From positions 2,170,001 through 2,234,000 of the forward strand of contig JAHRBS010000003.1 of the NCBI GenBank assembly GCA_024305745.1: a stretch of 64,000 bases of DNA, given 5' to 3'. This document shows positions 22,591 through 56,601 of the stretch, piece after piece; within the stretch, counting starts at the first letter, position 1; every line of letters begins with the position of its first letter. The notes under the pieces are model-generated. The model made no database searches, had not been told where the DNA came from, and saw only the letters and a program-made list of their open reading frames with translations. A program made the position numbers and the translations under genes. Source of the DNA: Polyporus tsugae. Lineage: Eukaryota; Basidiomycota; Agaricomycetes; Polyporales; Polyporaceae.

Positions 22591-24521
22591 TCACACGTCA
22601 CCGTCGACCATCTCCTCCGCCCACACCTCCGAATCCGTGTTGTCATACTCCTCATCCTCATCGGCCGGGATGAGCCTCCACGCGCTCCACGTCCCTTCGT
22701 GATCATTGTCAACACGCCAGCGCTCGGGGCGGTCGTATACGTCCGCGAGGGCCCAGTCCATGTACTCCTCGCCCGTCTCGTCGTCGGGGTGCAGCTCGAT
22801 GTTGAAGCCGAGATGCACCTCGTTCTCCCCGTCGACGATGGCGCACAGGCCCGTGTTGTGGCAGTAAGTCATCTGGAACAGCTCGATCATCTGCAGCGTC
22901 ACGCCGCGACGGATCATCGAGAACTCCTCCGCGTCGTCCTCGAGGAACGGGTACTCGTCGGGTAAGACGGGGACGCTGGGGGGGGCCCACTGGGCGGACA
23001 CGTAGGGACCATCGTAGCGCTCCTCGTCTTCGCCCGTCCCATACCCCTCGAACGACCAGTAGCCGTCTTCCTCGTCGTACCCCTCGCCATCCTCTCCATC
23101 CTCGTCTTCGTCGTCTTCGTCGTCTTCATCCTCGTCCTCGTCGTGATCAGTACTCCAGTAGTCGTCGACTTCAGTATGATCGCGGAAGATACCCGCCCAA
23201 GGATCTTCGTCGTCGGGCGGAGGGGACGGGCGCACGACGCCCGCAGGCGCCTTGGACTTGTCCAATGCAGACGCAATTGACTTGACGAGGTATAGGGGTA
23301 TCGGACGGCTGCGAACAACTGCACGACAACAGGGACATGTCTTCTTTCTGTAGAGTAGCGCGTCCGGATAATCATCGTCCATCATCTCATCGTCGCCAGC
23401 GGGCGCACTCTTGAACCATCCCTGCAGACAGGTCACGCACAGCACGTGGCCGCAAGGGGACAGGCTGCGAAACGTAAGTACTTGCTGCGCCTTCAATGCG
23501 ACCCGACATACCCATATGGCTTGAGAAGAATCTCCATGCAAATTTGGCACGTGAGATTAGTTTCCATAGTCGCAACAAGCTGATGGTTACATTAATTCGA
23601 GAACACATATACGCAACGAGAGACACGTACGTCATCGGACCTCTTGGACTGCCTCTTCAACTTTTCCATCTCTACTCGTTGCGAGCGGTGTAACTGTTGT
23701 CCTCGAGATTGGTACAATGCACCAGGGGTACGAACAAGGAGCACGGCCGCGAAACGTACCTCGTCTGTGGTCGACAACTCTGACCTAAGCTCATCGATCA
23801 CCTACAAGAGAAGTCAGCGTATGTAACCACACGATTAAGAGATGATGCACCTTGCTCTGCCTGCCGATCGTCTTCTTGGCCATGACCACTTGCTGGACTT
23901 CTCCCTCAGCCACCTCAACATGCAAGAGGGACACCCCAGACACACCTTCCGCATATTCTCAACCTCCTGCTTCATTCTGGTGTATTCCGCTTGCGCGAGC
24001 GGTCCAGTATACATCGGGTCATCCTCATCTTCAGTGGACTCGTTAGGACTCGCGGCCTTCCTCGAGTTTCTATGCGTTGCATCGCGCGAACGGGAGCGCT
24101 CCTTGCGCTTCGACCTCGCGTTCTGCGCATTACCCGACCTCCCACTATCATGCACAATATTCGTCACGATATCCTCGTCCTCGTCGTCCACCCACACGAG
24201 TGCCTTTGGCCTGGGTTTCGCCTTGACCCGGCCCCGGTCTCCTGTGTCGTCATGGACGGACGTACGCACTAAAGCCATGTTTGCCGCATTGGATGAGGAC
24301 GTGCCACCTCCATTAGTATGCGTGGACCGCTTCTTCCTGCGCAAGACGATGTCGAGCTGCGGGGGAGCTTCGTCGATTGCACGTGCGTCTGGGGAGCGGG
24401 ACCTGCGACGTCGGGTGGATCCAGGGCCAGTCGGAACGAGTGCCCTGTTTTCTCGCTGTCGCACGGAGCCGGTTGAACGGCGGCTTGAAGAGTTGGTGTT
24501 CTGGACGGCGACGGGTGGCAT
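22591..24521 (-). CDS. RING finger protein, putative E3 ubiquitin ligase
   Basis: Six minus-strand exons: 24521-23946, 23892-23851, 23801-23760, 23693-23631, 23579-23512, 23464-22591; 554 residues. Exons 2-4 are 42, 42 and 63 bp, all phase 0. The N-terminal 190 residues are disordered and Arg/Ser-rich. A coiled coil follows (MKQEVENMRK through LRSELSTTDE to EMEKLKRQSK), leading directly into a C3HC4 RING: CQIC in exon 5, CGHVLCVTC and CPCC in exon 6, with a roughly 25-residue insert before the last pair. Then come a strongly acidic Asp/Glu stretch and a C-terminal domain rich in Trp and Tyr (EEYMDWALADVY; WSAWRLIPADED). The architecture coiled coil-RING-acidic tail is common among uncharacterised basidiomycete ligases. 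Probable cofactor-dependent ubiquitin transfer; substrate unknown. Confidence 0.88.
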
Positions 24522-25495
24522 TGTTGTATCAATGTATGGGGGGCGGCTCCTGCACTGAATTCGAAGTGATACGAGCTGGTGTGGAGTTGTGTATTGACTT
24601 CCAGGTGCTGGAAACTTACAAGGTATGTTCTATGAATGCAAAGCTACGAGTGGTGTGGTGCGAGTAGGAAGGATACGAGAAGACAACACAAAGGGCTGCA
24701 GTCGTGCCGGTGGGCTTTGTGAGAGACGGCTTATGTAACCATAGTCATACGGGCGCTTGAATTATCCGATGATGCACCTCAGTGTTTCTGCACCTGTACA
24801 GTAGTACTGACAGTGAATTCAATGTATATGTACTTGTAGACCATCGCACTGGCTTCATTAGATGTCGGGTGAGCCTTTACTGTAGACCTCGGTCGCAACC
24901 GGGACTGATGTACTGTGACGCATTGGGCACGTCAGTTTCCTTCAAGTTTGGCCCAAAGTTGGCAGACCGCCTCTGGGCACGCCATTGGATCGCGGACTGG
25001 CAACGTCGAGGCAACGTGCTAAGAGCGGCGGCACGCTGCGCTCTGGCAGACGGACGGTGGCTCCGTGTGCAGGTAGGACTCCAGATCAAATCGAGAGAGA
25101 GAGAGAGAGACAGCAGCTGCGTGTATTGCAGAGCAACCAATGCGCAATTATACTAGCACACGGGTTAAGTTACGTAGCGGTAAAGTATAGCATTCGACTC
25201 TATGATGACGACGACTATGACTACGGCACGACGAGCATGAGCACGCGAGGCTCTGCGCTGTGAGGGTTCCAAGGTCCGGCCCTGACCGGCACTCTATCTA
25301 CGATACATTGGAAGAGACAGGCCGCCAAATCGCATATACCGACTCGATACTGTCACGTCTAGTGAGGTATATGATATCGAAGTCGAGGGGTGTGAGGGTA
25401 CCACAGGGGGATGGGAGTAGCGTTTGGTGCAGTGGGAAGGGATGAGACGGGCTATACCTGGCGAAACGTTCAGGAAGCAAATGGTTCTGTCAGAT
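24522..25495. other. Intergenic region with GA microsatellite
   Basis: About 970 bp without a supported gene. A (GA)n tract lies at about 25093-25109, and a GAC/GAT-rich stretch at 25200-25240. No terminal repeats or conserved frames were noticed. Confidence 0.5.
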
Positions 25496-27473
25496 CTACA
25501 GGGCTATAGTGGACGACTCGGAGGCAGGGTTGCTACCCAGCACTTTCTCCGGGTCAAAGGGCAGTTCGTTCGCCGCGACGGGCATGGCACCTCCGTCGGA
25601 GACGTAGGGCGCGTCAAACATCGAGCCATCGATGAACGAGGGGATGCTCCGTACGAAGACGGTCAGCCAGAGGAGGAACACGATGCCTGCGAAGAGCGGG
25701 TCAGTTCAGCATGTCCTACAACGCTATGATATGGGGAAAGATGACATACAGCTCCATGCGGCGCCGATCGCTCTGAACACCGGGCTGTCCAACACCTTGG
25801 CAAACTGCAGACAACACAGCGCAAACACTCCGTTCGGGAAAATAAGGCCCCAGTATGCCGTGGAGAACGGCAAGTTGACCTCCGTCCGCACGTGGAAGAT
25901 CGTGATAAGCGCGATGACGATCCACGCGACGCCCATCGAGAAGAGCACGTACGCCCCAAGGAAGCACCCTGCGAAGACCATCTGGCCAGCGAGGGCGATC
26001 GTCGGGAACTCGTCTCCCATGTGCAGGGGCAGGATCTCAGAGAGGTCCTGGCCGTTGACGAGGAGGGAGAACCCACCTTGGCCCAGTGGGCCGAGGGGGA
26101 TGAAGGCGGAGAGGACGAGCGTGGGGTCGGGCGGGCCGCTGGTGATGAGGCGGAGGAGGTAGATGGTGATCATCATGAGCGCGAAGCTCAGGCCGATGAT
26201 GACCATCGTGAAGGAGAAGGCGGAGGTGAGGAGGGCGATGGTTGTGGAGTGCGGGAGGAGTGCGTGGGACATGAGACCGCCGGAGGACGACGCGACGATG
26301 AGGGTGACCACGGGCAGCAGCCACGTTGCGGTCATCTTGTTGATGGAGTGGTCCTGGCGAGTCATCCTAAAGAAAGAGGTCAGTGACACGCTCTCACAAA
26401 GCCGTCTGCCCGCATTTATGGAATTCTGCTTTTGATCCTAAGAGGTGAAGATGGCGAGAACATTGTGACGTCACAACCGGTGGCAGACACATACGTCTAG
26501 CAACTGCTGTCCCATATTAATATCGCGCAACTGAGGAAGCGATGGAATGGCTCGCCATTCAACGTGCAGACCGGGGCATGTGGCAGGTGTCCAACATGAA
26601 GGCAATAAGAAGAAACCACAAACAGGACATGATGCACTCACATGGTGTAGATCATACTAAAGGCAATAACGTAGGCGACAAGGGAGTCCAACCACCAGAA
26701 TCCCCAAAGCGTCCAGAGGAATCCTGTGCCGCCGAAACCCCAGTCCTGGTTGATATTCTGCAAGAATGTGAGTGACGAACTAGGAGATATAGGCGCGCCG
26801 GAGGGGACGCACCAACGCAGAATTGATCAAAGTAACAGCTCCCATGGGGAAGCACCCCACGAACAGACTTTGTGTTGAATCCTTGATCATCAAAGACCAG
26901 ATCTGGAGACATACAGTTATGTTAGTCAGGGAGCTGAGCACTTACCTTGACTCTGCCAGTGTGTCGAGCGTTGGAAACATACCTCGGGGAAAAGGACATA
27001 GCGGAGTATTGTGCAGGTGCACACGAACACGAACAACATGAGGTTAAGCAAAAAGACAGCGAGGGCGACAATCTTGAGCACCAAGCTGTCGTTGTGGTAG
27101 GGAAAGTTGTGGATGAGGGCCGAGACCGCGCCCGTACCCATGATCACAGCATGCCAAACCCAAGTAAAATGTCTACGAAGTCAAGTGTCAACAATGTGAG
27201 GAACATCGGAGCTCGCGGTGGCGAGTACAAGTCTTCACGGCGGCAGTGGAGCAATATAACAACCACTGACTCGGAGGAACCTCCAAAAATCCAGGACTGC
27301 TCCTCTTAGACGCTGGAAGATGCATAAACACCGTGACCCATATGTGCGGCTCCCTGGATGACCGTCGACACCCATGGCCAATTGCCTACCACCGCCTAGA
27401 TAAGACATTATAAGACGTACCGAACGCGCTCTCGCCAACTCTTCCATGCGTACACTGGCTGTACGAGAGGCAT
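25496..27473 (-). CDS. Ssu1-like sulfite exporter (TDT / SLAC1 / Mae1 superfamily)
   Basis: Six minus-strand exons: 27473-27421, 27172-26983, 26902-26813, 26757-26642, 26366-25750, 25686-25496; 418 residues. The family opening is clear across the first junction: SWRERVR / HFTWVWHAVIMGTGAVSALI. About ten hydrophobic segments follow, including LVAYVIAFSMIY, ATWLLPVVTLIVASSSGG, SFALMMITIYLLRLI and LIFPNGVFALCCLQFA. Ssu1 pumps sulfite out across the plasma membrane; malate permease Mae1 and plant SLAC1 anion channels share the fold, so the substrate is inferred from the fungal relatives. Introns 1 (248 bp) and 4 (275 bp) are several times longer than others in the window. The C-terminal tail is short and polar. 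Confidence 0.88.
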
Positions 27474-35278: not shown

Positions 35279-37154
35279 TCACGCTGCACCACCAGTTGTC
35301 GCGCCGGTGCCAGGGAGGTCGGGTGCATCGAGCAGCGCCGTGGCCTCGCTCGCCAAAGTCTTGATCGTCGCATTCAGCGTCTGCACCCGAGTACGCAGCG
35401 CCGAATACCGCGCGAGGAGATTTTGATACTCGCGCGTCCCTTCGGAGTGCCTCTCTTGAAGCTGCTCCAGCCGACAACGGACCTCAGCGAGCTCCGCTTG
35501 TGTCCTGTGCAGCTCGCCCTGGAGCGCGTTCTGGCGATGGACATGCTCGATGTGCTGGACATGTCAGAGATGGGGTGGTCATGATAAGCAACGTCCCGTG
35601 TTCAAGATGCACACGCAAACACTCACCCTCTGCACCGCCTGCTCTTCCAGCCGATCCATCTGTTCGCATTGAACGTCGCAGTGGCGACGCATGGATTGCC
35701 TAACGTCGCGAAACGGGCTCCGCACCTCGCTGTACGAGGGGTCGCGCGCCGCAGCCCGACCGTGGTGCTGCTTCTGCGTGTCCTGACTCTGTATCAGCGC
35801 TAGCGTCTAAAACCATAACTCAAGCTCGGCGGGGAGACTCACCTGGGACGATTGCCTCACAGGCGGCGAGTGGCGACGGAGACTAGAGCTGCCCGGGGTC
35901 GCACCGCGCACCGACGCAGCACCCGGGGTATTCTCCCTGAACGAACGGTGGGAGCTTGAGCTAGAGCGAGAGTCGTCGCGAGAAGGTCGGCGGACGGGGC
36001 GCCTCGCATCCGTTCTGGGAGGCGTGGGGAGGCCGCTGGGAATCCTGCTAATGCTAGCCCTTGGCGGGGTGGTGGATAGGATGATCTCGCTGTGGGCATA
36101 CATAGCGTGCGGATCAGTGACACTACGCTCAGGAGAAAAGGGAGATGAGGTATCACTGACGTCGGGACCCGACTGAGATTCCCACCGACAGGCTGCTGCT
36201 GGCCGAACTGAGGAGACGAGGGGGCGGTGTAGAAATCGTCAATGTTCGCGCTGCTGCTGTCCCGGGCTGGAGGTATACTGCGGTTCCTCGAGGTTGCTAA
36301 CTCAGCGTTGGCCGCTTCTAGATGAGCATTGCGAGCCTTCAGAGCACGATTCTCCTCTTGCAATTCATCTCGTTCCTCTCGAAGCATGTCGCGGTCTACT
36401 TGGAGTTCCTCGTGCTCCCTCTTCAAGGCGTTGTACTCAGCACGCAGGGCGTCGAGCTCGTCTAGGAGCTCAATAACCCTGTCCCGAAGCTAAACCCCGA
36501 TGAGGGAAGCTCGTTGGAAGGACATTCTAAGAACGTACCTCTCTGGCAGTGAGAGGCTTCAGCCTACCAGCGACAACGCGGAGCAAAGATGAGATGCGCG
36601 CAATGTTCGAGTAGGACAGCTCCATGTCGCTATCTCTGATCCTGTCGATTCTGAATGCCTAACGTTGAATGCCCCAGTGCTGTTGTCGCGTAGAGAAAGA
36701 TGATACATACGCTTTCTGGAGCTTCTCACCCAGCTGGACCAGCTTATGATCCGAGGGATGCTTCGGCAACACTCTCTGGATTCTCTAGATGACAGGCGCG
36801 TCAGTTAGCACTGGCACTCGCTGTAAGCCAACAGAGGATAACTCACGAGGCTTTTCAGGTAAGCAGATATGCATCCTCGAGTACACCTGGTCACAACCTC
36901 CCTGTGGGCCTCCATGTCGCGCATAACTACCCCAGCGGCGCAGAGTAAATCATGTGCTCGGCGGATTGAAAGCGATTGAGAGGCAACGTACTTTCCTCGA
37001 CCAAGTCATCGGGGCTGAAGGCGTCAACCCCATTCACACAAAGGTGATAATTGACACCTAGTGAAACCCTCTGGTGAGCCATAGTCGTGGACGAGACTGT
37101 CAGCGCAGTGAGATACTCACGATCGGCATACGTAATCCTCGGAGCCCTGGGCAT
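35279..37154 (-). CDS. Coiled-coil protein of unknown function
   Basis: A multi-exon minus-strand gene; outer limits are good, the first one or two introns are uncertain. It starts MPRAPRITYADR (37154). Later exons encode VMRDMEAHREVVTRCTRG, a block RIQRVLPKHPSDHKLVQLGE, then DSDMELSYSNIARISSLLRV, and a long heptad coiled coil (LLDELDALRAEYNALKREHE and on to LEAANAELATSRN) at about 36500-36290. A Ser/Arg/Pro-rich linker follows (35860-36100) and a second coiled coil near the C-terminus (LHRTQAELAEVRCRLEQLQE), ending at the TGA at 35281-35279. Two coiled coils separated by a phosphorylatable linker suggest a cytoskeletal, spindle-pole or scaffold protein; no named family is recognised. A putative intron at 37120-37071 does not rejoin in a satisfactory frame, so the N-terminus needs transcript data. 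Confidence 0.7.
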
Positions 37155-37477
37155 GGTCGCACGGCGACAGACTCGACAAGAGCTTGAAGAGGCTTGAAGG
37201 GGCTTCAAGAAGAAGCTACGGCAGCGGGGAAAAGGATAGAAGTCGGTGGGTATCTGGAGCACAGCGCCAGGCTGCTATATAGGCGGTGAGGAGAAGGGAT
37301 ATGTGAGTGTCCAGCACAGAGGCACAAAGGAGGAGCACAGTGTCGCATGCCACATTGCGCAACCGGATGCTTATATATGTGCCTTCGCTCCGCCAGAGTA
37401 CATAATCCAGGATCTTCCAAATCCAAACGCCCTTCAGCCGTGCATGGCAAAGGCTGGCCTCCGAGGAGTCATCAATT

Positions 37478-40218
37478 CACATTGAATACGCACCCAGGCT
37501 GCACATGGCGTTAACGCTCGCTTAATTGTCTGTTTGAACTTTGTGGCCTTCGGAACCGTCCTTGCCTCCTCCGAGCGTTCCGCTAGACAAAAGACGCCGC
37601 CGTGCTAAGGTTCGAATCCCCCGATGAGCATCCGCATCCTGGGATCTTCAACAATAGAGAAGCAGTCGACCTGATTCCAACCGTGGATGAGCGACTCCGA
37701 TATATTGGGATGCATCCTCGGAATCGCGGACTTACAAAAGGACTAAGGGCAATCCCCGAAACTTTGAGGCTGAACGAGGCTACCTGAGGAGATGATCACA
37801 GAGGAAGGGTCGGCCGCACAGGACTTGCACGAGACGAGAAGCGTTCCGGCATGATACCCGAGCCCTGAACAATGATCAATGGGAGGTCGCATGAACAAAG
37901 CCATAACACCACGAAGACATGCTGAAAGGGAAGATGATGGGCATATTATCAACATAAACGCGCATATAGGAGACTGGATATAGATATACAAGAGCAACGG
38001 CGTGACGAGAAATGGACCAAGAGATACGGCTACACAGACCCACGGATGCACGCACACATCGGGTGCACCGCTTACCAGAACCTGGAGGCAGAAAGTCAGA
38101 TTCGACGGATATAAACTTCGAGGACAGGACGCACCGGTACTGCCCCAGCTGATAGGTACAAGACAACAGCGTAAGAATGCGTCTTTCGTCACACGCGGAG
38201 TATATAGTTCCACTCACGACACCGCGTATCCCAGCGAGCATATTGTTCTCCAGCGCCATCCCGCGTTTCTCGTTTAGGACGACAGAGCACTTCGAAGCCG
38301 CCTGGGCCGCCCAATGCTTCATATGTAAGTCATGGTGCTGTTCGACGAGGGCATCCTTCTCCCCCATCGCATCATCCAGCTGGGCCAGCGCTTCAGCGTG
38401 CATGAGCACCGTCGCATCTAGGCGGTCTTCGAGCACCCCTTCACGCTCTCGATGGGCGACCAGGGAGACGTTGGCGGTGTGGAGCTCAGCATCCTTCTGT
38501 ACCAGTGCACCGTCCTTCTGGAGCAGCGCAGCGTCTTTCTCCTGCAGCTGCACGCGCATCTGTTGCAGGAGGACGCTCTTCTCTTGCATCGCGACACCGT
38601 TACGCCGAGACTGTGATTAGACTATTCAGTATGTCGAGATCAGGCCAGTTCAACGAACTGCGTACCTCCTCGCGCATTTCCTCCATTATGTGCGTAACAC
38701 GGTCAGCCAACCCTTCAATGACAGTGGACCCAGAGGCAGCTCGAGGCTGGGCACCCGACGGACCGGCCGCATTGGACGTTCCGACTCCCGCGGCGTCCTC
38801 CATATCATAACTAGTACTGCCAAGGGGCGGCGCATCCTGAGGGGTGAAATTGGGTTGAGGAAACCTGGCGCGCGTAGAGTGGCGCGAGAGCGGCGAGGTC
38901 GTGTCCGGAGGCGTCAAGTAGCTGAGCGCCGGTTGTAGGCCTTGTGGCGTGTAAGGAGGGGAACTTCTGCGTAGTCATGTGTTCAATCTACCAACACAAG
39001 ATTCTAACGCGAAGGCTAAATTGACTTACTGTCGGTCTTGAGACTGTCCTTCGAAAGGATTGGCGTCGCGGTGCGTGTACTCGACCTCCATTTCGACGTC
39101 CGAGACGTCAGTTGGCGCCAGACTGGCCTGCTGTGCAACGTTGGAGGCGGGCTGGGGTTCCTCTGGGATGCCCGCCATAGACCGCCTTCTCTGCAGCGCA
39201 TTCAATTTCAAAAGCAGCTGGATAAATAGTCCATTCAGCTCGTGTCTCCCCAGTCGTTCTAGAATGCTTCACCTCCTTCTTCTTCGGGTTTGGCACCCGA
39301 CCCACACGTTTCATCATGTGCCTACCCACCGTAGTCGGGTGGGCATGATGGTCAAACGTTTCTCGCGCCTCTTTAGCGCTATCGCCTGGCGTGATTAAGC
39401 CGTCATGTAACATTCGAAATGAGACGTACGCTGCCGCAAGCACATCGATCGCCTTGAACTTCATGTCGCCATCTGGAGCAGGCGGCCGACGTATCAACGC
39501 TTCGGCCGACTCCTAAAGAGAGAAATCAGTTTCCTACGGCGAAATACACAGTGGTTCATGCATACGAAACAGAGCACTGTAACTTCTGTGCAAGTCTTTC
39601 CGACAGTGGGCCTCGTAGACTTCAATCCTATGTCTGTGCGGCTTTGCCTGACTGGTTATCGATAGTGATGTTAGGGTATCATAGTCGAGGCTGAGTTGAC
39701 ACGTTAGCCCTAGAACGAACCATCTTCCACCATTTGCCCCATAGTAAAAGACCCGCTGCCATGCCGGCACAGAGATGAGAGGAACGCTATGAGAGGAGGG
39801 TAAGACAAGTGTGGGGAGGGAGACGAACAGGGCACTTGCAATGCTGATATGTGGGTTTCCCAAGCGTGCGAGTCTTCCCGGATGACTTCTTCTTCTTGGA
39901 TGAGCGAGGCTTGGTCGACTTCACCATCCTGATGGGTTGTGGGAGATCTATGCGGACGACGACCAGATGCTAGTGGGAGGGTGATTTCGGAACTAGTGTT
40001 TATATAGTCAGTAGCAAGTGTCTCGCAGGTATACCAATGGCATTTGCGACACAAAGTAACATAGCAACCGCGGCGAGGCACGGAGTCAAGGGACGTTGGT
40101 GTCGTCAAAGCAGGTGAATAAGATAATCACTACAATAAAACATATCCGCAACAGATCCTAAAACGAAAGATGCTATCATGAGTCGTCGGAAACGGTTGAA
40201 AAAAGGCAAACAAACCTG
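37478..40218. repeat. Tandem duplication, unit A
   Basis: Direct-repeat partner of 40219-42802. The left ends match (TGAATACG...CTGCACATGGCG...AACTTTGTGGCCTTCGGAAC at 37485 and 40226 onward; GGGATGCATCCTCGGAATCGCGGACTTACAAAA at 37708 and 40562). The right ends match (GAATAAGATAATCACTACAATAAAACATATC at 40116 versus 42704; GCAAACAAACCTG at 40206 versus 42790). The whole unit, gene plus flanks, was duplicated head to tail. Divergence is substantial, with indels, so the event is not recent. Confidence 0.85.
38218..39927 (-). CDS. Tandem coiled-coil paralogue A (unknown family)
   Basis: Minus-strand multi-exon gene in duplication unit A, starting at the ATG at 39927 (MVKSTKPRSSKKKKSSGKTR, Lys/Ser-rich). 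Following segments: DIGLKSTRPTVGKTCTE (about 39640-39580); KFKAIDVLAAAYVSFRML...DSAKEARETFDHHAHPTTVG (39460-39300); an acidic/Pro-rich part with VSDVEMEVEYTHRDANPFEG; a Ser/Thr/Pro-rich part; and a coiled coil with the repeated motif LLQKDGALVQKDAEL (38580-38490) and further heptads to about 38220. Every block is shared with copy B. Exon ends and the 3' end beyond the donor at 38217 are not resolved. No family is recognised. The basic N-terminus and the His-rich block with HMMKRVGRV could bind DNA or another protein, which is speculation. Confidence 0.6.
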
Positions 40219-42802
40219 ATCCACATTGAATACGGACTGCACATGGCGTAACGTTCGCTTACACTGTAATTGTCTGTTGGAACTTTGTAGCCTTCGGAAC
40301 CGTCCTTGCCTCCGCCGAGCGTGACGCTAGACAAAGGTTGGAATCCCACGATGAGCATCCCCATCCCGGGATCTCACCGGGGGCATCGACCTGGGGGACA
40401 CGGGTGTCCCATCGTTGTTGCACCCTGACCAGAGGCCACATTTGATAATGGTTTTGCGCGGCGTCTCATGGTAATCGCCTTTCAAATGTAACACAATTTC
40501 TGCGTTACAATAGAGAAGCAGTCAACCTAACTCCAAACATGGATGAGTGACTCCGATACCTTGGGATGCATCCTCGGAATCGCGGACTTACAAAAAAGGA
40601 CTGAGGTGTCGACCCTTGACCTTGAGGCCTAGGTCTAGACGCTACCTGGCGAGTGAATCATCAGAGAAATGCTGGTTCACAAAGGAAAACATTCCAGGAA
40701 GGTACTGTATCTTGAACCGCCGCCAATGGAAAGCTGACAAAAACAGCGCGGAAACATGCATAGAAACTAAATGCAGCATTATCGACACGCACACGCACAT
40801 AGCAGGCAATAAACACATGACGAGAAAATGTGGGAACACCTATCATTACATTTACACGGACACACGAAAGGCGCGCACACAACTCACTCACTTGGACGCA
40901 AAGTGTCAAATTTGATCGAAGACAGAGTTTGAGGAGAGGACGCACGGATGCCAATCACACTGGGATGTCCAAGACAACAGCATGAGAAACTTGCCACTTT
41001 CACGACACTTGGAAGGGTCTCACTCACTGTAGGGACCGGCGCCAGCGAGTTGGAGAAGCATATCCTGCTGAGCTCGTTCAGCGTTCAGATTGGCGCTGAT
41101 ATATTGGAGCTCGGCATCCATCTGCAACAGAGCATCGTCCTTCTGGAGCAGCGCCGCATCCTTGTCCTGTAGCTGCACTCGCAGCTGTTGCAACAAGGCA
41201 TCCTTCTCTTGCATCGGAGCATCGTTACCCTCGGCCGCCTGTGATTGATTACATTATTCAGTGTATTGAGAGGCGAATACGGAGAAGTGAATACCCTCTG
41301 ACGGATCTTCTCAATTAAATGCATAGCATCGTTAGCCAACGCTTCGATGGAGGCGTGCCCATCCCCGGAGGACGTCTGAGGATGCGCGCCGGAAGGGGCC
41401 GGCGCATGGGAAGAATCGACTCCCGTGGCGTTCGCCACATCATGACTGGTGCCGCCAAGAGACATTGCCTCGTGGGTGTCGCGATTGTGATGAAGAAGCG
41501 TAGAACGCGTAGAACGGCGCGACAACGCCGGGGAGGTCATGTCCGGAAGCGTCAGGTAGCTGCGCGTCCGCTGTGGCGTGCCAGGAGGGGTACTTCTGCA
41601 CAGCCATGTGTTCAATATAGTGACTTGAAATCCCAGTCGAAAGCGAAAGCGAAAGCGAAATTGACATACTGCTCTTCTTGAGACTGTCCCTCGAAAGGGC
41701 TGGCATGGTGGTGCGTGTACTCGGTATCCATCGAGACGTCCGAGACATCAGTTGACGTGAAGATGGCCTGCTGCTCAAGCTCATTCAAACACAGCTAGGT
41801 ATAATCCATTCAGCTCGCCGTTCACTGGTTCAGCTAGAACCCTTACACTCGGCAATCTCCGGAGGCCGCCGATACGCCGCATCATGTGCTTGCCCACCGG
41901 AGTCGGGTGGGCATCGTTGGGAAACAATTTCTTCGCCTCTTTGGCACTGTCGTGTGGCGTGAGTAAACTATCTTGTAGCATACGATTAGAGACTTACGCA
42001 GCCGCAAGCTCGCCGGTCGCCTTGAATTTCACGGGCCCGTCTGCAGCTGACAGTTGGCTTTTCAACTTACCGTCCAACTTCTACAGTGAGAGGGCGCGTG
42101 GCTCGAATCAGTTCCCCGACGAGTAGTAGACAGCGGTTCGTGCGTACAAGACGGAGAACGGCCTCTTTGGTGCAAGTCTTGCCAAGACTGGGTCTTTTAG
42201 GCTCCAATCCGATATCCTTCCGACTTTGTGTCACTAATCACCGACGGTAACGTTAGCCTGCCACGGTCGCTGAGTTGACATATTGGCGAGAGGACGAACC
42301 AGCTCCCGATATTTCCTCCATCGTGAAAAACCCACTGCCATAGCTGCGCAGAGAGGAGAGTACCGCTGTGGAACGAGGGTGAGGCTACTGCGGAGTGTGG
42401 AACGCACTGGGCACCTTACACTGCAGATATGAGGGTTCTTTCGGCTTGCGGGTCTTCCCAGACGACGACGACGACCTGGGCTTGTTGGATGAGCGAGACT
42501 TCACGGACTTCACCATCTCGACTAGTCGTGTGTAAAGGAGACCACAAGGATGCTTGCGGCAGGTGAGTTCGAAGCAGGCATTTATACGGGCAGTAACAAG
42601 TGCCTCGCGGGTATACCAACGGTATCTGGGATAAAACGTAGCATAGCAACCGCGCCGAGGCAGGGCGGCAACGGGGCGGGGCGTTGGTGTCGTGAAAGAG
42701 TCTGAATAAGATAATCACTACAGTAAAACATATCGGTAATCCTTAAACAAAAGGTGCTGCCATGAGTCTTCGGATACGCACGAGAAATTGCAAACAAACC
42801 TG
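40219..42802. repeat. Tandem duplication, unit B
   Basis: Second copy of the duplicated unit, immediately to the right of unit A and in the same orientation. The A/B junction is visible at about 40205-40226, where the shared right end (GCAAACAAACCTG) is followed at once by the shared left end (CACATTGAATACG). Unit B differs by indels, including extra sequence at 40370-40505 that has no counterpart in unit A. Confidence 0.85.
41020..42516 (-). CDS. Tandem coiled-coil paralogue B (unknown family)
   Basis: Minus-strand gene in unit B, paralogous to copy A across its length. It starts at 42516 (MVKSVKSRSSNKPRSSSSSG). It shares DIGLEPKRPSLGKTCTKEAV (about 42220-42150), KFKATGELAAAYVSNRML...DSAKEAKKLFPNDAHPTPVG (42030-41880), a MDTEYTHHHASPFEGQSQ segment near 41720, the Pro/Ser-rich block, and the coiled coil LLQQLRVQLQDKDAALLQKD. 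The frame then stops at 41020 after AGAGPYSE, so B lacks the long C-terminal coiled coil of A. Conserved blocks in both copies despite many substitutions suggest both were translated for some time. Exon boundaries are not fully resolved; function unknown. Confidence 0.6.
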
Positions 42803-42816
42803 GCGCCCTTAAAGTC

Positions 42817-44576
42817 CTAGATAATAAAGTGATCCGCCCAATGACGTATAACGCCCTCGCCCTGCCTATGGCTGGGGAAGCGCTTCACATCCCTCGAGAT
42901 GATCACCGAATGCGAGTTCCGCACCGGATGTATGAACGCCAGCTCCTTCTTCAGCCCGGGCAACGTGTTGAGCCACGCCACGATCTTCTTCTGGACGTCC
43001 GAAAGCACGAGGTCCTGCTTCTGCTCCGCCTGCACCTTCGACGCCGCATCTAGCTCCTCCATCGCGGCAGATGCAGGCAGCGAAGGCAGGGAAGACTCTG
43101 CGTCGGAGAGGCCGGGGTTCTCGAACATCTCGACGACGGCGTCCTCCATCTGGCGCTCAAGGCGGCCGATGACGTGCACCAGGCGCTCCCGGCTCGACTC
43201 CTCCTTCTCGAGCACCTTGATCCGTGCGCGGGACGCGCGCGAATCGAGCGCGAGGCGGGTGATGATCAGGGACAGGGCCAGGGGAATGAGGACAGGCGTC
43301 ACAATGAGAATAAGCTGCGCGGCGTGCGAGCGTTAGTGTGCAGAGAAACTACGCAAAACCAGAATAATACATACCACGTTCCAGGGGAAGCCGAATTGAA
43401 GCGCGGGCGGAAGGAGTGGGCGGTCCGGCTTCATGCTTTTGAACCATTTCGGAGAGAATATGCGCGCTTTCGGGGGTGGCTGGAATGCTTTAGGAAGGGT
43501 ATGCGACTTGATTATAGGGGAGTACTCTTGGTCGAATTCTCTGTAGACATTCAACGTATGAGAATCGCGCATACACCCGATAATCGAAGGGCTTACATCT
43601 CCAAGCCATTAACTTTATGGTTCATGAATATGTCTTCAAGCTCTATAGCAGCGGTTGCATAGGGTACTGTGACGTCGTTGACCGCGTTCGCGTAGAAGCG
43701 GACTTGTTCGAAGCGTGCCAGGGTCTTATAAAATATGCGGTCTGTTCAGGACATTCATACCATCAGAACCCATTCATCAGTGAACAAAGCTCGTAGACGT
43801 ACTGGGATCAGCCATGACCTCAAGTAGCGGTCGCCCGTTCTCCGACCACTTGTCTATCTGCCGGACGCGATATGTCAGCGCCAAACGGAATGTGAGGACC
43901 GGCGATGTACGCACGACATAGAACTGCTCCCCTGTTCTAGATAACAGTTTAGGCCCGAAATATGCGAAAAGGCGCGATGTGAACGAGCGATATCTCGGGA
44001 GGCCAATATGGGGCGTCGCGATGGTGTTGAAGTTGACGGGTATAACATCCTCAAAGAACCCTCGTTGGTGCAGGATGCTTCACACACCAAGTATCAGCAA
44101 CGTAACGAGATATTGACCAAGAGATCAACACACCCGACGACATATCTCGAAATAAGTCCTCCGAGGCTATATCCAGTGACGGAAAACCTTCTGACTGTCT
44201 TCCCGTCCTCCTTCAGCTTCTTCATCTCGTCGTATATCTATCCACGCCCGCACACATCGCCGACCGTAACCCCCGACCCAATTGAGTACCCCGAGCCGTC
44301 CGCGATTGAGCAAGGCAACGGGACACTCACCTCTTCGGCGACGCGTTCTCCTCCCCAATCGATACCGTCGTACGTCCCGACGTCCTTGTTCGTCTCCGCG
44401 ACGAGGACGTGTAGCCGCTCGCCGTTCGGACCTCTCTCCGAGTCCTCCTGTGCGCGTTTCTCCTCCATGATCCGGCGCAACTCCGAGAGATTGACGGGGC
44501 TGCCCCACATGCCATGGATAAGCACGAGAAGGTGGACGGCTTGCGAGTCGTCGGATTCGACTTCGGTGCCGGACAT
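42817..44576 (-). CDS. ROG1-like serine lipase/esterase (DUF676 family)
   Basis: Seven minus-strand exons: 44576-44331, 44237-44134, 44077-43915, 43857-43803, 43741-43597, 43540-43375, 43314-42817; 458 residues, frame-consistent. The N-terminus has the oxyanion-type LLVLIHGMWGSP. The nucleophile elbow is VTGYSLGGLISRYVVG, followed by VNFNTIATPHIGLPRY, both hallmarks of the DUF676 lipases. Likely acid residue in YANAVNDVTVPYATA; likely catalytic His near the C-terminus (GEGVIRHWADHFI). A hydrophobic segment (LILIVTPVLIPLALSLIITR), encoded at the start of exon 7, may anchor it in a membrane, followed by a coiled-coil stretch. Yeast relatives (Rog1 and others) act as monoacylglycerol lipases or phospholipases on lipid surfaces; the exact substrate here is unknown. 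Confidence 0.9.
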
Positions 44577-48100: not shown

Positions 48101-49699
48101 GGTGGCATGCCACCGGTACAAGCAGTTGAACTGAGCAATCAATCATAAGCTGCAGAGCCCTTTCACACGCGTGACAAAAGCAGGAGGCTCCCTACCTCAA
48201 CGCTGCACGAATTCCCGCGCCCGCGCTCGAACATCGAGTGGTCCGCGTTGCGCATCTCCTCGAACGGGTTGAACGCCCAGCTGCTCCCCTGTCGAACCAG
48301 GCCCAGGATCGCGGCGAAGTAGTCCGACATGACGATGCCCGCGAACCACGCGCAATTGATCAGGCGCGCCGTCTCGAAGATGTCCTTCTCCTGGTCCACG
48401 AGCGCCGCCTTCGCGCGCCGGGGGTCGTTGGGCGGAAGCGTGGCGGGATCGACATACGTCCCGCGCTCGTTCAGCTCCAGAAGCCTCTTCGCGATGTACT
48501 ACACAGACGCGCGTCAGGCCCGGGTCGCGCGAAAGAAGGATTGAGGACATAGCGGGGCGGATGCTTACGTTGTGGTTCCTGTTAAAGAGGGTGAGAAGCA
48601 CACAGACAGCCGGCGGGAGCAGCAGCAGGCGGTCTTCGGCGAAGGTGTCGGGGATAAGGAGACCGCGCCCATCGCGCACACGGATCTTGTCCTGCATCTC
48701 CTCATTGTTCCCATACAAGGGCGCAAGATCGACATACGAGGACGTCTCGTTGATGTTGACATTCGTGTGCGACGTGCGGAAGACGCTGATGGGTGAGCCA
48801 ACGTCAACATCGGCCACTCCACCAAGAGAAGCGGGACACTTACGTATGAATGACCAGCGCCGCAAACGCGAACATTAAGCTCGAGAGACCCGCGGGATGA
48901 GCCACGAACTGCAAAAGGCATGAGCTGGGCTTCGAGAAGGTGCATAAGGTGTGGGCCGACCTTCTCCCGTCTGAGTAATGTATCAAACACAAGCCCGGCA
49001 TCGGGAAGCTCGTTGCGGGGAAGCGGGTGCGCCTGCGGCACGCTGCGCGAATAAGGAGTACCAGCTTTTCCCAAGTCGGGTATGGCGGGGTTGTTGTTTG
49101 AACCGTCTGCGCTCCGGTAGGCGAACTCAGGACCGATGGAAGTATCGGGCGGGTGGGGAAGATCTTCGTACACTACAAACAAAAGTCATGAGAAACGCAT
49201 GTCGGGAGTGCACGGTGGCTCGAGATGCGTACGCAATTTGATGAGCGCCGTCTGCAACTTCCTCGCCGCGGCATGTTCTGAATTGTTGGATAGATAAACT
49301 AACGTGTGCTCCAACTGAAGGCATAGTTAGCAACAGTCAGGATGTCCTGGACACCTGACACGACGCACAAGCATCTTCCGGTCGTCGATGGAGTTCAGAT
49401 GGGTAATGCCATCAACAATGCTCTCCTGAAATCAGGGTGAACAAAGGCGGTAGATGACTGGATCGAAGTGTCACGTACAATAGTGGAGAGATCTCCGGCA
49501 AATGGGAGATGCTTTCGAACCTATTCGCAGGGGGCATGAAGGACGGAACATGTCATAGGCAAGGTGTGCAACTCACCTCATCGCGGAGTTTGTCAAAGCC
49601 CTTCATAGGCTGGGAAGATGTGTGCTGGAAGTCATCGCCGTCGTCGTGCAGAGGACCTTTGGTGAAGGTGCGAGACAGTCTGGAGGAGAAGGTGGACAT
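45161..49699 (-). CDS. Ppo-type linoleate dioxygenase / cytochrome P450 fusion (oxylipin synthase)
   Basis: Minus-strand gene from the ATG at 49699 (MSTFSSRLSRTFTKGPLHDD) to the TGA at 45163-45161, with about twenty short introns and roughly 1,070 residues, the usual Ppo length. N-terminal animal-peroxidase-type domain: distal haem His in LVIHTVFRTSH (about 48845), SSYVDLAPLYGNNEEMQDKI, LLLPPAVCVLL, and proximal His with catalytic Tyr in FNCLYRWHATTS (about 48120). C-terminal P450-like domain: Glu-x-x-Arg in LEALRLDPTFRG (near 45870, Arg codon split by an intron) and the haem Cys in IDGAGRCLGLDLS (about 45553). Such enzymes oxygenate linoleic acid at C8 or C10 and isomerise the hydroperoxide, making psi-factor oxylipins that control sporulation. 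Both active sites look intact, so diol-synthase activity is possible. The last exon is only 12 bp (45172-45161). Confidence 0.92.
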
Positions 49700-52052: not shown

Positions 52053-53180
52053 ATGCGGTTGCTAGATACAAGCACCGCGGCCGCCGCTAGGCTGCACGGA
52101 TTCAAATATAATGCGCTTCTGCGCCGTGCCATTCTCTCCCGCGTCTGGCAAACAAGTGAACAGTCCTTTCAAGGGGTCCCGAACCTTGCTTCGTTCCACC
52201 TGATCCCCTTCGTATGGTCCAGGACTAGCGAGTGCTGCGAGGTCGCAGAGTGGGATGGCTTTTAAGGGGTCTGGATCGATGCAAGCTGTATCGACAAGTC
52301 CAACAGCGCAGAGCCGCACAAAGCAATCGACGCCATGAATACGTGGTACGCGAATGCGACTCTGGATTCGCGAATCACGCTTCGGCGGCGCGCGTCGTTT
52401 ACCCGTGGATAGACGTCGCAGGAGCTGATCACTCCTCAAACAGTCGTCTAAATTTCCTCCTCCAGTTAATTGGTACCCAAGAGAGCCTGGCGTACCTTAT
52501 CGAAAACACAGCCTGGCAGTCTTATTGTGGGAAGGACCGCTGGAATAGTTAAGTGTTGCGACTTCCGTGATACCGCTGTTGCTTACTGCTAGCGTAACCA
52601 GGTCCACATCGCGCAACGACACGGCAAACCGCGCATGCCCCCTGATGGACATATTTGGTGTCCACATGCCCGTTGTCTACGGCGAAGCAGCAACGTTTGC
52701 TTCAGGATATCTTGAAGCGGTTTCCAGACCAGACCATTTTCCTCCGGGATCCAGGATACGCCGGTACGGAGCCGCTCTCGGATTACTACACCCCTACTGA
52801 CCGCCTGTACGGGGGCGCTACCCTCGCTCCACCTAATTTCGGCGTCTTGGCCCAGTGCTTTCCTCGTCCGACTACTCAGCCTAAGCTCCCTAAAGCCCCT
52901 AGAGTATCGCCTCACGACGCACGGGAAGCACACGTCGGAAGTGCCCTTCGCCGCATTCGAGAGGCCCCGGTACGACGTTAACGAGATTACCGTCTTCATC
53001 GCGACCCTGTCCTACCGGAACGGCCGCGCCTCTCATCCTCCACGCGCAGCCCAGAACCGCAAACTGCAATTAAATACGCCGGCGCGCTCCAGCAAAGCGC
53101 AAGCGCCGCCATTCGACTTGGAGGAGACCTCTAGCTCCGCAGGAAGCACCTCCTCGACACGCACCAGCACGACTCCCTGA
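52053..53180 (+). pseudogene. Decayed HET-domain (heterokaryon incompatibility) gene
   Basis: The + strand retains the order of a basidiomycete HET protein in broken frames. Opening MRLLDTSTA (52053) and AILSRVWQTSEQSFQ; a stop at 52263-52265; GVWIDASCIDKSNSAE and AIDAMNTWYANATL; ASFTRG then TAG at 52410-52412 where the family has Trp, then TSQELITPQTVV; IGTQESLAYLIENT in another frame; LMDIFGVHMPVVYGEA (52640-52690), then a frame change into LLQDILKRFPDQTIFLRDPG. Downstream open stretches to about 53180 fit the variable C-terminal part. HET proteins trigger cell death when incompatible hyphae fuse. Several stops and shifts make this copy non-functional. It is not flanked by obvious repeats. 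Confidence 0.85.
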
Positions 53181-54403: not shown

Positions 54404-56121
54404 TCATCCTACAACAACGTTCGGAACGATCCTCCGGAGCGCTTGGATGTCCTTCTTCTCGGAATGCTGGCAGTTCCTGAGCTCCAACGTCTCGATCGGC
54501 ATCCCGTGCTGGCTGCGAAGCGTGATCCAAGTGATCATGTCGTCGATGAACTCCTCGTCCATGTCGTCTCCCGGGTAACGGAACAGAATGTCGTTGAAGT
54601 ACACGGCGCGAAGCTCTGGCAGTGGGACAAGGTGTTGCCCAGACGGTTGAACACGTATGTCCAGGAGTGCATCAAAGAGGTTGAATGGATGGCCGCCAAA
54701 AGCCAGTGTGCACAATCGCGGCGTCAGAGAGAAGAGATCACGCCACTTGAGCTGGTAGGATAAGCCGTTGACCACCTTCATGTACTCGAGGTGCGAGAAC
54801 AAAGGCCGACTTTCACGAACAAATGTCGGCATCGCATCCTCCTCTTCGGGTCCGTATAGCCCACAGAACGTCAGGCGGATATGCGCATCGCCAGACATGT
54901 CGGTGGTTTGCCATCCGAAGATATCGATATTGAAACCCCCGTAAGGTGGTCCGAAACGCACCGCGACTAGGGGCCTCGCGCTGAGGTGAACGGAGAGGTT
55001 GCGTATGAGGTCCTTCATACCCCTGCTTCCGCTACCGCTAAGGTGTACGCTGGCTGCATGATTCATGGAGAAATCGTTGAAGAGGTTTGCACAGTCGTAC
55101 GTGGGGCCGCGAAGACGTAAGGAACGGAGCGATGGGAACGAGAGGGGTCGAGAGGGAGGTGGTCCAAGGTCCTGGCTGTTTGACGTTGGGATGGCTTCAT
55201 CCAAGTGCAACACCTCCAAGCGTGGCGCGATCCGCTCAAGGACATCTAGCATGTCCGTGGTAGTCCCGACATCAGGGCGATCGGGCTGGAGGGGGCCCCG
55301 TTCGAGAGATGCGGTCACCTTCAACGTTGTGGGCGACGAGCAGAAAACGGGGTCGGCCCAACGAAAGGGGAGCCTATCCAGTTCCAAGTGGTACAGACGA
55401 GGCGTGAGCCCCCTGTTGGGACGATTGGGACCGCAGGGGGAGGCCCGTAAAAGCCGAAGTGTGGGAGGCGTGAGCACAAGACAAGCTTCTCGAGCCGCCC
55501 CAGCGGCTGAGTTAACCGTTTGCAGAGCGCCTGTACCCTTGGGATCTCAGTATCGACCGAGAGGGAGCGTATCTGTGATGATACGGGTGGAATGAGGTCG
55601 AGAGTGGAGATGTTGCGACTAGCACTGCTGCAGTCATAGCGGACGTCTATGTGCAGAGGGGCGGCCTTGGAGCGTTCGAGGAACACCGCGAAAATATCGG
55701 CGCGTGTCTGTCTCGAATAAATATGACTCCAGAGCCGTACGGTATGAATTGCGACATTTCGCCAGTGCCGGCAGACATGGGTGAGCTTGATCCATCGAGG
55801 CGGCGGGTGTTCAGAGTAGGCGAAGTCGCGGTGGGCAGTGTCGTAATACTCTTGCACGAAAGTGATCAAGATCTCAGCAATAAGTTCTTCGGGAAGTCGC
55901 CCAACAGCAGTCAAGGTATTCAGACGAGTCTTCAGATCCAGAATTGCTCGTAGGGACACGTCGATGTCGTGCAGGACCGTTTCGCGCGCCTCAGCAAACT
56001 TTGGGTGTTGTCTTGCAACTTGAAGTCCCGCAGAGTCTTTGGTTTCCTGACCGCAGTAAAAGACATACCCATCGTGTTCCAGATGCAGTTGAATGCCTTG
56101 GATGGCGGAAACGTTGTCCAT
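54404..56121 (-). CDS. F-box / leucine-rich-repeat-like protein
   Basis: Minus-strand gene starting at 56121 (MDNVSAIQGIQLHLEHDG). A helical region is followed by the F-box (LPEELIAEILITFVQEYYDT ... WIKLTHVCRHWRNVAIHTVR LWSHI) at about residues 75-130, then LRR-like beta-alpha units (LDLIPPVSSQIRSLSVDTEI; RLEKLVLCSRL; APRLEVLHLDEA; LPELRAVYFNDILF) to LRRIVPNVVVG at 54404. The reading frame changes between about 55510 and 55440. A 70-bp intron (donor GTCTTG, acceptor CAACAG) would restore it but would remove well-conserved-looking LVLCSRLP, so a real frameshift is also possible. This is the common expanded mushroom F-box family, presumed SCF substrate receptors; the target is unknown. Confidence 0.75.
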
Positions 56122-56601
56122 ACGACTACACGAGAAAAGACGTCAGGACTCAAAGACCGATCAATTTTCCCAATACCTTATGAACTGTGTAGGTGGCCAA
56201 CTAGAAGCGGGAACCTCCGCCGTCTGGGGCTATCTAGTGAGGACCGTAAACTAGATCCGTTCAGCCATGAGCACATATGAGCACTGTTGTCAGGAAGGTT
56301 TCAGAGGAATGAACGCATACAACGACTGCAAGGGAACAGTTGACGACAAGAGAGAGGTTGAGGAGAGCCTCGAAGTCGTTGATGAGTTCTTCAATGACTT
56401 TCCCTAGCAGTTATACTATAAGTAACGCGTGTGGCAGGAGCTGTTGCAAGGAGCGGAAGTGCGACAAGAGCTCTGAGAATTTAGAAAGCGGACACTGGCA
56501 TGAGTTCACACCCATCGTAGGCGCCTCTCGATAGACAGCTTCCTCCCGTCCACCGAGTCTCGTCTGTTATAACCTGCAGCCCGCTCATCGAAACCCCACG
56601 G
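56122..56601. promoter_or_regulatory. Divergent promoter region, F-box / COPE
   Basis: 480 bp between two divergent start codons. No gene is supported and no distinct TATA box was found. Presumably shared regulatory sequence. Confidence 0.5.

Follow-up and report, generated by a model that had tools for sequence, protein, structure and literature searches.

An apparently old tandem duplication of an orphan gene encoding putative long-helix proteins in Polyporus tsugae

Introduction

Many mushroom genes are orphans for which no description is available. Tandemly duplicated orphan (taxonomically restricted) genes are a kind already known in fungi. The two genes reported here, A and B, are an unnamed example of this kind. 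They lie in a 64-kb stretch of Polyporus tsugae DNA (contig JAHRBS010000003.1), which is called the window throughout. The pair has in common with fungal tandem orphan genes the lack of a recognised domain, a narrow distribution and a local duplication: A and B are adjacent and in the same orientation, and no relatives were found outside a narrow lineage in the proteins searched. The pair differs from the kind in the apparent old age of its copies and in the unusual conservation of the non-coding ends common to both.

These conserved ends are the unexpected part of the locus and the point worth following in what is otherwise a fairly ordinary old local duplication. With two copies, matching introns and an outgroup protein, the locus can be used to ask how orphan genes persist. 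Furthermore, as the divergence of A and B was measured apart in exons, introns, promoter and flank, it provides a case for studying why non-coding stretches change less than coding ones.

Nothing on this gene family was found in an open-licence library, a source that leaves room for work published elsewhere. The terms tandem, orphan, species-specific, LXA43 and unique do not occur in the main text of a Ganoderma leucocontextum genome paper (PMC8664445), and the ten passages retrieved from another paper on that genome (PMC10817607) do not deal with the A/B gene.

Results

Two head-to-tail units and their protein relative

Unit A (37478-40218, 2741 bp) and unit B (40222-42802) are arranged head to tail with 3 bases between them, and each contains one gene, on the minus strand in both cases, a strand that the initial annotation had not given. 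When compared by BLASTN, the units gave five collinear pieces with 71-91% identity (best E value 4e-43), and the MAFFT alignment showed 70.8% identity over 2378 aligned columns. In a repeat search, the main repeat families of the 36000-44500 region were also collinear, with a spacing of 2.57-2.86 kb. The two adjoining units of about 2.7 and 2.6 kb described in the initial annotation were thus recovered at the same coordinates by BLASTN and MAFFT, and the length of the alignment indicates that their likeness is not confined to short patches. The units and their conserved ends are as follows.

37478..40218, minus strand: unit A of the duplication (BLASTN and MAFFT against B); its ends match unit B alone in the genome
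40222..42802, minus strand: unit B of the duplication (BLASTN and MAFFT against A, genome search with the unit ends)
37478..37750, no strand assigned: conserved non-coding block at the distal 3' end of unit A, 90.0% identical to that of B over 249 columns
40222..40606, no strand assigned: conserved block at the distal 3' end of unit B, broken by a dispersed repeat at 40375-40506 (BLASTN, MAFFT, repeat search)
40027..40218, no strand assigned: distal promoter block of gene A, with 81.4% identity (188 columns) to about 42609-42802 upstream of gene B

A DNA search with the unit ends and a protein search of the genome (43.2 Mb, 18 contigs) returned these two copies only, such genome-wide counts being lower bounds. 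As far as sequence evidence goes, the gene pair is real, and the duplication and gene anatomy are very probably as described here.

Among 5.8 billion proteins, the sole relative found was the hypothetical protein LXA43DRAFT_216935 of G. leucocontextum (P0001 hereafter), which matched A with an E value of 9e-166 (73% of the query covered) and B with an E value of 7e-47 (65% covered). No relative was found in the same collection when the N-terminal half was the query. This search was word-based and limited by protein length, with the best 7996 candidates scored for A, so that remote relatives, or those annotated in another way, may escape it. As P0001 is 95% identical to copy A, the host is taken to be a Ganoderma or close kin. 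In the data searched, the gene looks restricted to Ganoderma. The record of P0001 gives no function, and no counterpart of B was found in G. leucocontextum among the protein matches.

Gene models

The gene models were built manually and their splice sites picked so as to keep the frame open; the finding of six introns per copy, with phases 1,0,2,0,2,0 in both A and B, is therefore not independent and counts as support rather than proof. In these models, each gene translates as one open frame across the six introns. Intron 1 of A has GC-AG borders and the other eleven modelled introns have GT-AG borders. The exon and intron coordinates, all from the hand models, are given below.

39840..39927, minus strand: gene A exon 1, ATG at 39927, Lys-rich MVKSTKPRSSKKKK, phase-matched with copy B
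39652-39839, minus strand: gene A intron 1, 188 nt, GC-AG
39566..39651, minus strand: gene A exon 2, DIGL..RP..GKTCT; followed by intron 2, 39513-39565
39430..39512, minus strand: gene A exon 3, KFKAIDVLAAA; followed by intron 3, 39379-39429, with YVSFRML
39273..39378, minus strand: gene A exon 4, AKEARETFDHHAHPTTVGRHMMKRVG; followed by intron 4, 39218-39272
39030..39217, minus strand: gene A exon 5, ..PTDVSDVEMEVEYTH..NPFEGQSQ; followed by intron 5, 38967-39029; join to exon 6 as in P0001
38666..38966, minus strand: gene A exon 6, Pro/Ser/Thr-rich linker; followed by intron 6, 38611-38665; join to exon 7 as in P0001
38218..38610, minus strand: gene A exon 7, putative long-helix (LLQKD) region (also P0001 and AlphaFold2)
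38149-38217, minus strand: gene A possible intron 7, open over its 69 nt and kept as coding in P0001; coding may extend to 37876
42420..42516, minus strand: gene B exon 1, ATG at 42516; followed by intron 1, 42234-42419, 186 nt, GT-AG
42148..42233, minus strand: gene B exon 2, DIGL..RPSLGKTCT; followed by intron 2, 42081-42147
41998..42080, minus strand: gene B exon 3, KFKATGELAAA; followed by intron 3, 41947-41997, starting with GTAAGT
41847..41946, minus strand: gene B exon 4, AKEAKKLFPNDAHPTPVGKHMMRRIG; followed by intron 4, 41795-41846
41670..41794, minus strand: gene B exon 5; followed by intron 5, 41596-41669
41295..41595, minus strand: gene B exon 6, Pro/Ser/Thr-rich linker; followed by intron 6, 41239-41294
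41020..41238, minus strand: gene B exon 7, shorter putative long-helix region, ending GPYSE-stop

The exon lengths (A/B) are 88/97, 86/86, 83/83, 106/100, 188/125, 301/301 and 393/219 nt, the values for exon 7 not being comparable because exon 7 was ended at a possible donor in A but at the stop codon in B. In exons 1-6, the difference between the copies is a multiple of three in all six pairs (zero in three). For introns 1-6, the lengths are 188/186, 53/67, 51/51, 55/52, 63/74 and 55/56 nt, and the difference is a multiple of three in two of the six pairs (zero in one). Frame tests on single exons were weak, and some introns scored equally well in one frame. The relative in G. leucocontextum has the same exon 5-6 and 6-7 joins as A, that is, both of those among introns 1-6 that fall within its span. 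Unlike A, it is modelled from a point within exon 5 onwards, with the possible intron 7 kept as coding sequence.

The predicted proteins comprise 415 residues for A, counted to the possible intron 7 donor, and 336 for B; the C-terminus of A could lie there or further on. The earlier observation that copy B ends sooner holds: exon 7 encodes 72 residues in B versus 131 in A (up to the possible further donor), which leaves the last helix of B 59 residues shorter, with no obvious lesion.

The initial annotation had also described the same order of sequence blocks in both proteins. The blocks are indeed placed in matching exons, except that the 'YVS.RML..DS' part corresponds to intron 3 in the models. 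Once these 51 nt are removed, LAAA runs into AKEA in frame in each copy. The read-through frame of B hits a TAA, which is itself inside the GTAAGT donor; that of A contains no stop over the 51 nt, and intron 3 of A could be retained and read through. In the read-through frame, 5 of the 11 changed codons of this stretch are synonymous, and it is possible that the stretch is an ancestral coding sequence.

Two details of the introns were also observed. Intron 1, which is GC-AG in A (39652-39839) and GT-AG in B, is the longest of the introns at 188 and 186 nt. Intron 5 of copy B contains a CGAAAG tandem repeat of 3.8 copies at 41638-41660.

The predicted protein and its C-terminal helix

The first 60 residues of A contain 15 Lys or Arg and 3 Asp or Glu. 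The conserved middle module of the A/B product reads KFKA..LAAAAKEA..F...AHPT.VG.HMM.R.G. For P0001, AlphaFold2 predicted a helix at residues 132-264, with a ten-residue mean pLDDT of 79-96 over residues 141-240, from an alignment of six rows made of P0001 and stretches of the window; over the whole model, the mean pLDDT was 51 and 265 of the 397 residues were below 50.

Over the first 60 exon 7 residues, self-identity at period 7 reached 15/53 in A and 17/53 in B, and no other period from 3 to 11 exceeded 8. The hydrophobic periodicity was not significant, either in a simple test (shuffles as high in 733/5000 cases for A and 1000/5000 for B) or for the cores (4404/10000 and 537/10000, respectively). 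Exon 7 of A also contains a 21-bp tandem repeat of 2.3 copies (38492-38540) which, together with the heptad sequence repeats, fits growth by heptad duplication. With a confident long helix and period-7 sequence repeats on one side and non-significant hydrophobic periodicity on the other, a coiled coil is no more than plausible for the C-terminal region of A and B.

A Pfam scan of three proteins gave no family at the curated cut-off; its four weak matches were all below (CinA, 13.1 and 13.2 versus 23.5; SUFBD_core, 14.5 versus 27; MRVI1, 11.7 versus 27). Similarly, a sequence search of the PDB with A gave no match at an E value of 1 or better. These results, with a sole protein relative that has no name, agree with the earlier remark that no family with this order of blocks was recognised.

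Conserved non-coding ends

The distal 3' block of about 270 bp has a Jukes-Cantor (JC) distance of 0.108 between the copies, and its conservation stops sharply near 37750. The best 60-column window of the A/B alignment contains 57 matches, a value reached in 1 of 2000 column shuffles. At the junction of the units, the distal 3' and distal promoter blocks meet, so that one long conserved stretch lies upstream of gene A. A genome search with the distal 3' block of unit A found no copy beyond that of unit B. The conservation of the unit ends would fit both constraint and gene conversion.

The repeat that breaks the block of unit B (40375-40506) has eight other matches in the genome, covering 33 to 118 query bases at 73-97% identity. 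At three or more of these eight loci, the opposite, inverted end is present too, giving elements of 263-277 bp, which makes the insert resemble half of a MITE. As it is missing from A, it was either gained after the duplication or lost from A.

A structured RNA in the distal blocks was considered and rejected: seven foldings gave z values between -0.06 and 1.94, and none beat its own shuffles. An Rfam scan of the 64-kb window found no family at the gathering score, and a tRNA scan of the window found a Ser tRNA at 53036-53124 alone. By eye, a short string resembling a tRNA T-arm was seen in the distal block of unit A. In a partial look by eye for a conserved small protein, one stretch of the distal blocks showed no codon periodicity.

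Divergence, age and alternative explanations

By the NG86 method, the 326 codons aligned exon by exon (exon 1 included) gave dS 0.73, dN 0.32 and dN/dS 0.44 (bootstrap 0.34-0.60), a ratio that by itself implies constraint on one of the copies, not necessarily both. The ratio was likewise 0.44 on 290 codons of a three-sequence alignment. By part, it was 0.33 for exons 1-4, 0.57 for exons 5-6 and 0.44 for exon 7; differences at codon positions 1, 2 and 3 numbered 96, 83 and 126 over the 326 codons. The dN/dS comparison proposed in the initial annotation points to constraint, though exons and introns have diverged equally: JC distances were 0.383 in exons (981 columns), 0.379 in introns 2-6 (272 columns) and 0.388 in the core of intron 1 (175 columns), which is not what strong coding constraint would give. 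The highest values were found in the 3' flank (0.622; 336 columns, 58% identity) and the proximal promoter (0.576; 92 columns). As neutral yardsticks, the 3' flank agrees with dS and the introns do not.

The initial annotation had suggested a possibly young gene under duplication; a young duplication is not supported. A and P0001 are identical at 266 of 281 aligned residues (95%), whereas A and B are identical at 173 of 326; P0001 and B agree at 115 of 218 (53%). Since A is far closer to P0001 than to B, A and B most likely parted earlier than this species and G. leucocontextum did, unless B ran much faster. The word 'young' may fit the narrow distribution of the gene, not the duplication, and the broader proposal of a gene confined to one lineage, duplicated and diverging, agrees with a single protein relative, in G. 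leucocontextum, and the lack of a Pfam family. A recent duplication whose gene bodies diverged fast would account for distal blocks that are 90% identical (JC 0.108), but introns (0.38) and 3' flank (0.62), both expected to be near-neutral, are far more diverged and the protein comparison stands against it as well; we regard it as very unlikely. The greater conservation of the unit ends than of the middle would also be expected of the termini of an element family, that is, if the units were copies or cargo of a mobile element. Against this, two copies only were found in 43.2 Mb, both at this locus, inverted repeats of at least 25 nt are absent from 36000-44500, no target-site duplication was seen on reading and the unit carries a multi-intron gene, so that a mobile origin is hardly credible. 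As to a DNA transposon or Helitron in particular, several dispersed copies with defined termini were not found, and this candidate was rejected.

Another explanation is that copy B, or both copies, are decaying relics under little coding constraint, whose frames stay open through luck and a convenient selection of splice sites. The near-equality of exon and intron divergence speaks for decay, as do the grouping of the sole annotated relative with A, the helix of B that is 59 residues shorter and the repeat inserted into its 3' flank. On the other hand, B is free of stops over its 336 codons (hand model). In neutral simulations of B, a mean of 7.9 stops arose at 0.37 substitutions per site and 4.8 at 0.19, and 1 and 11 of 2000 runs, respectively, remained stop-free. 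In addition, the dN/dS ratio has an upper bound of 0.60, though constraint on one copy would suffice for this, and the length changes of exons 1-6 are all multiples of three. Decay is therefore considered unlikely.

Proposed role of the gene pair

The reading that we prefer, and hold to be probable, is that A and B arose by an old tandem duplication of an orphan gene and encode long-helix proteins that probably self-associate, with a function that we infer. A gene so far seen in Ganoderma only would have undergone a tandem duplication that took in the promoter and about 0.4-0.7 kb of the 3' flank, most likely at a time when this species and G. leucocontextum had not yet separated. To judge from their sequences, both copies would still make protein. 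The product would comprise a basic N-terminal part, the conserved middle module, a Pro/Ser/Thr-rich linker that is probably disordered and one long C-terminal helix, whose heptad sequence repeats most likely let it self-associate. Tentatively, and with less confidence, the product may serve as a small adaptor or scaffold, with nucleic acid or an acidic partner bound at its basic end; B, with its shorter helix, may form pairs with A and act as its modulator. A more speculative proposal, which we think doubtful, is a lineage-specific two-gene regulatory module: the unit ends would be functional cis elements that have long co-regulated A and B (or driven ectopic gene conversion), while long-helix A and short-helix B would pair and antagonise each other.

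Neighbouring genes

Beside unit A, a multi-exon gene on the minus strand (gene C, about 37154-35279) has Glu/Arg/Leu-rich, helical-looking stretches. Gene C was rejected as a third paralogue: it gave no BLASTP match to A or B and an hhalign probability of 0.1%, in a comparison for which the A/B strings included part of intron 1 and the gene C model was rough, its frame not being continuous. In the genome, no second copy of gene C was found by DNA; by protein, there were two weak matches elsewhere (E values of 0.3 and 0.7). In a scan of nine neighbouring ORFs, including 22591-26437, 48197-48874 and 55321-56142 (minus strand), RING and haem-peroxidase matches were below the cut-off, and a SLAC1-type anion channel (E value 2e-46) and an F-box-like match were above it.
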